A DNA stretch of 30,122 nucleotides, taken from the IMG/VR virus record IMGVR_UViG_3300025135_000017, positions 1 to 30,122 of that record, one strand, 5' to 3'. Positions 4,887 to 5,025 of this stretch are shown one piece after another. This DNA comes from a virus. Position numbers and translations under genes: made by a program. Each line of letters starts with the position of its first letter. Position 1 is the stretch's first letter. Below the pieces are notes generated by a model. It saw only the letters and a program-made list of their open reading frames with translations. It did no database searches and was not told where the DNA came from.

Positions 4887-5025
4887 TTCGGGTTGTTTGG
4901 TGGCGCAGGTCGCGGTTACTTCGCATCGGAGCGCGTTGTCGCTGGTTCGAGTCCAGCCAGATTCTTCGGGATCTGTAGCTCAGTTGGTAGAGCACGTAAC
5001 GTACCGCAGCCGCTTGTTCCCCGAA
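4887..5025 (+). ncRNA. YrlA-type Y RNA, unit B, with circularly permuted tRNA module
   Basis: Outer helices: TTCGGG 4887-4892 with CCCGAA 5020-5025; GGT-C-GCGGT-(T)-AC 4908-4919 with GTACCGC-A-GCC 5001-5011, leaving one bulged U (T4917). Inside is a complete tRNA body in permuted order: variable-type TTGTC 4936-4940, T-arm GCTGG-TTCGAGT-CCAGC 4941-4957, 3' acceptor strand CAGATTC 4958-4964, a cUUCGg tetraloop 4965-4968, 5' acceptor strand GGATCTG 4969-4975, U8-A9 (4976-4977), D-arm GCTC-AGTTGGTA-GAGC 4978-4993 and A26 (4994). The acceptor stem is 7 bp with one G-U, and the long helix replaces the anticodon arm. This is the tRNA-mimic architecture reported for bacterial YrlA RNAs that bind Ro60. 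The gene 3' of it is a Ro60 homologue. Confidence 0.85.

Follow-up and report, generated by a model that had tools for sequence, protein, structure and literature searches.

The IMG/VR virus record IMGVR_UViG_3300025135_000017 (positions 1 to 30,122; hereafter the window, meaning the whole stretch of 30,122 nt that was analysed) carries, just ahead of a Ro60 gene, an RNA-coding segment that reads as a tRNA with its parts in permuted order. This raises the question of what kind of RNA the segment encodes and what a phage would use it for. An earlier note had described it as a Y RNA bearing a circularly permuted tRNA body. In our assessment, positions 4888-5024 probably encode a YrlA-type Y RNA of a Ro60-encoding phage, with a helix that would sit on Ro60 and a tRNA module that would serve as a handle for tethering a host enzyme.

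All elements of the locus lie on the plus strand, in the order promoter-like site, first Y RNA (Y1), second Y RNA (Y2), strong terminator and, immediately downstream, the Ro60/TROVE gene. A consensus scan placed a putative promoter of the Y RNA unit (TTGACA-18-TATACT, 11 of 12 matches) at 4745..4774; shuffles gave an expectation of 0.2 such sites per region, and a consensus match says nothing of use. The unit is closed by a predicted intrinsic terminator at 5040..5078, with 17 pairs of which 10 are G-C. The gene at 5108..6505 encodes a protein of 465 aa with TROVE and vWFA domains, which matched PF05731 with 50.2 bits (cut-off 23) and was modelled by AlphaFold with a pLDDT of 78 and a pTM of 0.60. 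The structures closest to this model were Ro60 of Thermus phage phiLo (9kop/9l5y), followed by D. radiodurans Rsr and animal Ro60, with Foldseek E-values of 5.6e-18 for 9kop, 2.4e-12 for 2nvo (Rsr) and 1.8e-11 for 1yvp. Judged by the TROVE domain above the cut-off and by the modelled toroid and vWFA fold, the product is a Ro60/TROVE protein. TROVE genes have been noted before in jumbo phages (PMC7824862). Elsewhere in the window, at 13089-19305, lies a sugar cluster with PseB-, PseI-, PseF/KdsB- and PseC/LegC-like proteins and a sugar O-methyltransferase; most of the scores are below the equivalog cut-offs, and the cluster suggests a pseudaminic- or legionaminic-type sugar pathway of the phage.

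Y1 (4777..4878) was recognised from its fold and from Rfam family RF01053, the Deinococcus Y RNA. It contains the Ro60-type motif GCGGTTACTTC, a small hairpin and a T-arm-like hairpin, and it has neither a D arm nor an acceptor stem; the T-arm-like hairpin is all that it keeps of a tRNA body. The two hairpins and the adjacent Ro60 gene are features of the Deinococcus Y RNA as well, to which the match over 4775-4887 was weak (23.8 bits, E 0.054, below the cut-off), and Y1 is a different RNA from Y2. We read Y1 as a probable second, poorer or degenerate Y RNA located 5′ of Y2 and resembling the Deinococcus Y RNA.

In Y2, the elements of a tRNA body that had been claimed in the earlier note (T arm, 7-bp acceptor stem, U8-A9, D arm with GG, A26 and a 5-nt variable region) were all found. 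The RNA opens with the 5′ strand of the Ro60-binding-type helix (4888..4919), which is assigned by the fold and carries the family motif GGTGGCGNAG...GGTTAC, also present in related loci. This is followed by a degenerate anticodon arm (TTCGC-ATCGGA-GCGCG, 4920..4935, tRNA positions 27-43), in which four of the five pairs are possible around a 6-nt loop and of which relatives have an intact, covarying counterpart, by the variable region TTGTC (4936..4940; AGGTC or TGGTC in most relatives), and by the T arm GCTGG-TTCGAGT-CCAGC (4941..4957), supported by fold and covariation. The acceptor stem, supported by covariation, consists of seven pairs, one of them G-U, between its 3′ strand CAGATTC (4958..4964) and its 5′ strand GGATCTG (4969..4975), and a UUCG tetraloop (4965..4968) closes its end. 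That the 3′ half comes before the 5′ half and is joined to it by UUCG was thus confirmed at 4958-4975. The remaining part comprises U8-A9 (4976-4977), the D arm GCTC-AGTTGGTA-GAGC with its GG (4978-4993) and A26 (4994), which together (4976..4994) were placed by alignment to the YrlA model (4933-5001) and by covariation, and the 3′ strand of the Ro60-binding-type helix (4995..5024), assigned by the fold and ending in CGCTTGTTCCCCGA, a motif kept in related loci.

Both the MFE and the centroid fold of Y2 hold the T, acceptor and D stems together with the outer helix 4888-4892/5020-5024. The fold energy by itself was not significant (z -1.54), with 16 of 200 shuffles equally stable. Using cmscan, 4933-5001 was aligned to positions 23-89 of the 114 positions of the Rfam YrlA model (RF02553) with 45.1 bits and an E-value of 5.6e-9. 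Because this score falls short of the gathering score of 69 bits, Y2 was filed by architecture only, as a putative YrlA-like RNA and not as a certified member of RF02553. At gathering cut-offs the whole window had no match in Rfam, and ARAGORN and Rfam called no tRNA in natural order within it.

According to a review, YrlA joins a stem that binds Ro60 to a domain resembling three arms of tRNA, namely the D, T and acceptor arms (PMC8394870), and in a structural-alignment paper the YrlA crystal structure 6CU1 is called a circularly permuted tRNA (PMC11472068). Like YrlA (RF02553; Salmonella 6CU1), Y2 has ends that pair in a long helix with a Ro60-type motif, a T arm, a loop-closed acceptor stem, UA and a D arm in permuted order, and an adjoining Ro60 (TROVE) gene. 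A permuted tRNA body in a Y RNA is an already known kind, that of YrlA, here found in another phage; the YrlA match and the adjacent Ro60 gene bear out the description of Y2 as a Y RNA with such a body. The two differ in that the Rfam model has no anticodon arm, whereas Y2 has a degenerate one and many of its relatives a full one, and in that some relatives have the normal order.

Red algae and archaea have permuted tRNA genes in which the 3′ half lies ahead of the 5′ half and from which a normal tRNA is processed. Y2 shares this order, and when its halves and those of its relatives were rejoined in tRNA order, ARAGORN called 110 of 117 as tRNA, compared with 113 of 351 mixed halves. Y2 might accordingly be read as such a gene, whose precursor would be circularised and cut into a normal working tRNA. 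However, the acceptor of Y2 is sealed and leaves nothing to process: where a removable spacer would separate the acceptor strands there are only the 4 nt of UUCG at 4965-4968, without leader or trailer. Furthermore, the remaining ends form part of a long helix that is conserved, the anticodon loop of the window RNA has 6 nt, and UUCG or GNRA loops are frequent at the acceptor end, being present in 26 of 62 viral modules. We consider this reading highly unlikely.

To place Y2 among its relatives, loci around Ro60 homologues were taken from viral contigs and bacterial genomes, mostly metagenomic contigs. With a strict finder, the permuted module was located next to Ro60 at 46 of the 100 viral loci and at 47 of the 80 bacterial ones. 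As an unbiased test, viral modules were picked by T-loop and D-loop sequence alone (n=69). The acceptor strands paired in 44 of these 69 modules, compared with 0-4 of 69 at offsets of one to three bases and with 3.2% when partners were swapped between modules. All four pair types (G-C, C-G, A-U and U-A) were seen at six of the seven acceptor positions, and all except C-G at the seventh. In an alignment of 24 viral modules, 94.6% of the cells were paired against 68.4% in shuffled and 32-48% in slid versions, and 148 cells were altered on both sides against 50 in shuffles; as the rows of this alignment came from a stem-requiring finder, the motif-only test is the cleaner of the two. Compensatory changes in related loci, which the earlier note had named as a check, were found in the acceptor, D and T stems. 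On the strength of the YrlA model, the motif-only pairing and the alignment pairing, the predicted structure of Y2 was confirmed, at the level of comparative sequence analysis, to be beyond chance.

These data also bear on a trivial origin of the module. When compared by blastn to named phages, the locus gave tRNA-junction-like matches only, and the module matched the tRNA-Asn/tRNA-Lys junction of Streptomyces phage Success. Such a match would suit decayed tandem tRNA genes, with the 3′ half of one tRNA followed by the 5′ half of the next and no function left. Yet in 44 of 69 motif-selected modules the two acceptor strands are complementary to each other, each of the seven positions shows a variety of pair types, and the covariation between the two halves that was looked for was found. 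Ordinary tandem tRNA junctions occur among the modules that fail acceptor pairing, and placement beside Ro60 is conserved, all of which makes decay extremely improbable.

The acceptor loops of permuted YrlA RNAs at alphaproteobacterial loci (L161, L165, L167, L169, L176 and others) are often NCCAN (TCCAT, ACCAT or CCCAT), and such loops were present in 11 of 55 distinct bacterial modules. They are possibly a relic of N73-CCA; the Bradyrhizobium YrlA sequences considered in this respect are closely related and prove little.

The claim that the Ro60 helix replaces the anticodon arm proved wrong. Many relatives have a full anticodon arm 3′ of the Ro60 motif GTTAC and 5′ of the T arm; one example reads TTCGA-CTGTTAA-TCGAG, with AGGTC as the next bases. 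Of 117 modules, 69 combined a 5-bp stem with at least four pairs, a 7-nt loop and T33, whereas 200 shuffles gave a mean of 8 and a maximum of 16. At a fixed offset, 43 of 85 distinct arms had at least four pairs, against 6-17 on sliding. Pair 31-39 was C-G 21 times and A-U 21 times, pair 30-40 was G-C 30 times and C-G 15 times, and the paired arms had T33 in 38 and A37 in 35 of 43 cases. Conceivably, this hairpin could be the Y RNA's own TTC...GAA hairpin, with a resemblance to an anticodon arm by chance: a TTC-loop-GAA hairpin is found in Y RNAs without a tRNA body at these loci as well, and in half of the modules that do have such a body no 5-pair arm occupies the fixed place. We hold this to be rather improbable in view of the excess over shuffles, the frequencies of T33 and A37, loops such as CTGTTAA and CTCATAA, the tRNA-like AGGTC that comes next, and the variation of pairs 30-40 and 31-39 on both sides. 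Since the anticodon arm is kept in relatives and the rejoined halves are called as tRNA, the permutation point was placed at 26/27 and the Ro60 helix is seen as an added arm. The module of the window is among those that ARAGORN called as tRNA once rejoined, with an irregular loop. In this family the Ro60 helix is thus best understood as an insertion between positions 26 and 27 and not as a substitute for the anticodon arm, about half of the relatives keeping a covarying arm beside it.

Arms of this kind appear to have misled gene annotation. The tRNA-Ser annotated in Brevundimonas phage Gurke (L188 2811-2885) and the tRNA-Thr annotated in Xanthomonas phage 10KY502B (L190 2822-2889) each correspond to a permuted Y RNA that was read across the anticodon and T arms, and the tRNA-Gln annotated in Caulobacter phage CcrColossus (L187 2173-2240) overlies a permuted Y RNA. 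All three annotations look wrong, and permuted Y RNAs would account for some of the wrong-looking tRNA annotations beside phage Ro60 genes. By eye only, permuted bodies resembling class II tRNAs, with a D arm of the Leu/Ser type and a long variable arm, were noticed in the Y RNA arrays of large phages (L187 2640-2940, L189 2820-2960 and L192 2690-2860). Another phage contig, which has permuted Y RNAs and Ro60, also carries a permuted (two-piece) tmRNA (L018 1413-1703, 130 bits).

The earlier note had also concluded that no CCA end can exist. This holds for the window RNA, but not for the family, in which some phage relatives have an open acceptor with an encoded N-CCA. Normal-order tRNAs with a Ro60-type arm were found in L003 (two copies), L012 (two), L039, L049, L066 and L092, a further one in L222 by a pattern scan, and one in L078 by a covariance model, with acceptor pairing of 5/7. 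Their elements follow one another as acceptor, D arm, 3′ strand of the Ro60 helix, short loop, 5′ strand of the Ro60 helix, anticodon arm (in most), T arm and acceptor. In total there are about ten non-crAss RNAs of this order, plus the crAss001-type one: crAss001, PhiCrAssBcn24, cr112_1 and cr106_1 each have one unannotated normal-order RNA downstream of the TROVE gene, which in Bacteroides phage crAss001 lies between Ro60 and the following gene, at L193 4624-4767 (NC_049977.1), and is conserved in Kehishuvirus and Mahstovirus. No clear case was found among the 80 bacterial loci. The covariance model built from the normal-order RNAs (R1) is blind to topology and gives scores to ordinary tRNAs and to tandem arrays of permuted RNAs as well, and only hand-checked matches were counted. 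Long normal-order candidates in L155, L162, L161, L170, L052, L189 and L196 were rejected or left out on account of a competing permuted reading or weaker pairing.

In twelve normal-order RNAs, 95.5% of the cells were paired and 66 double changes were found against 18 in shuffles, the Ro60-type helix included. The general tRNA-scoring model RF00005 was matched above its cut-off by the RNAs of L092 (46.9 bits), crAss001 (L193, 46.6 bits) and L039 (41.1 bits), and by one RNA each of L012 (45.3 bits) and L003 (45.1 bits). For the first three, the alignment covers the entire model and leaves 50-80 nt inserted at the anticodon region. The model gave no call for L222, L078 and the second RNAs of L003 and L012. 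N-CCA is encoded directly 3′ of the acceptor in five of the ten (L039, L092, the second copy of L003, L222 and L078). The RNA of L222 (1838-1969, minus strand), with an encoded A73-CCA, belongs to a tRNA cluster, with tRNA-Pro on one side of it and a further tRNA on the other; no TROVE gene was found on this viral contig of 66.8 kb. The loop of the Ro60 helix is GAAA, UUCG or GGAA in six of the ten non-crAss RNAs, and it is there that the free ends of the permuted RNAs lie; L066 has both topologies, normal order at 2415-2542 and permuted at 2887-2942. This suggests that permuted and normal-order RNAs are the same five-helix molecule, opened at two different places. We tentatively propose, as a possibility short of an even chance, that in some phages, the cultured crAss001 among them, the product is a functional tRNA with five arms, in which the Y helix is placed between the D and anticodon arms. 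Such a tRNA would receive a mature CCA end, and Ro60 could hold it while it is aminoacylated or bound by tRNA-handling factors; permuted YrlA RNAs of the window type would be the same molecule opened elsewhere. Charging or tRNA-factor binding of the normal-order RNAs is possible in view of the encoded CCA and the tRNA-cluster setting of L222. Our literature search, conducted without the main YrlA papers, returned no report of normal-order forms, so that these and the anticodon-arm forms may already be described.

What Y2 would do can be approached from known systems. Bacterial YrlA is known to bind Ro60 and to contain pseudouridine and dihydrouridine. Both DusA and TruB act on it, and the tRNA-like domain of a Y RNA binds PNPase to give RYPER, in which Rsr is tethered to PNPase by the Y RNA (PMC8394870). 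An analogy for Y2 is offered by tmRNA and other tRNA mimics, as partial tRNA bodies that act outside decoding and are substrates of tRNA-modifying enzymes; the acceptor of tmRNA, however, is open, carries CCA and accepts Ala, whereas that of Y2 is sealed and a Ro60 helix is present. Sequence and comparison show, in Y2, a tRNA body cut between 26 and 27, with its acceptor sealed by UUCG and its new ends extended into the Ro60-type helix. By analogy, this helix would bind the ring of the phage Ro60, gating or anchoring it, while the tRNA-shaped module would be matured by host tRNA-modifying enzymes and serve as a handle. Most likely, Y2 would link Ro60 to a host enzyme that handles RNA, for instance PNPase, in the way that Rsr of D. 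radiodurans is tethered by its Y RNA; the decay or the repair of structured RNAs could thereby be redirected during infection. Weighing against the YrlA-type reading are the score below gathering, the unremarkable fold energy, and tethering to PNPase that has been studied in D. radiodurans only (PMC7790460).

The main rival to the tether role is that of a decoy, in which the Ro60-bound, tRNA-shaped RNA would compete with tRNAs for the host enzymes that cleave them or otherwise act on them, such as anticodon nucleases of defence systems, and thereby spare phage translation. Such a role was suggested for YrlA before (PMC7790460), and it would fit the anticodon arms of many relatives, with their U33, A37 and varied anticodons, as well as the tandem arrays that hold several different tRNA bodies. 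However, the anticodon arm of the window RNA itself is degenerate, Salmonella YrlA was not cut by an SOS-induced tRNA (anticodon) nuclease in the same study (PMC7790460), and drifting anticodon loops suit a structural constraint better than mimicry of a single target. We therefore give the decoy a low probability.

For the family as a whole, these findings suggest that bacterial Y RNAs do not in every case imitate only part of a tRNA; many relatives contain a whole one, together with its anticodon arm. They also outline a route by which YrlA may have originated, namely from a tRNA that gained a Ro60 arm at 26/27 and then shifted its ends. The normal-order forms with an encoded CCA and the forms with an anticodon arm would make the role of the tRNA module testable.
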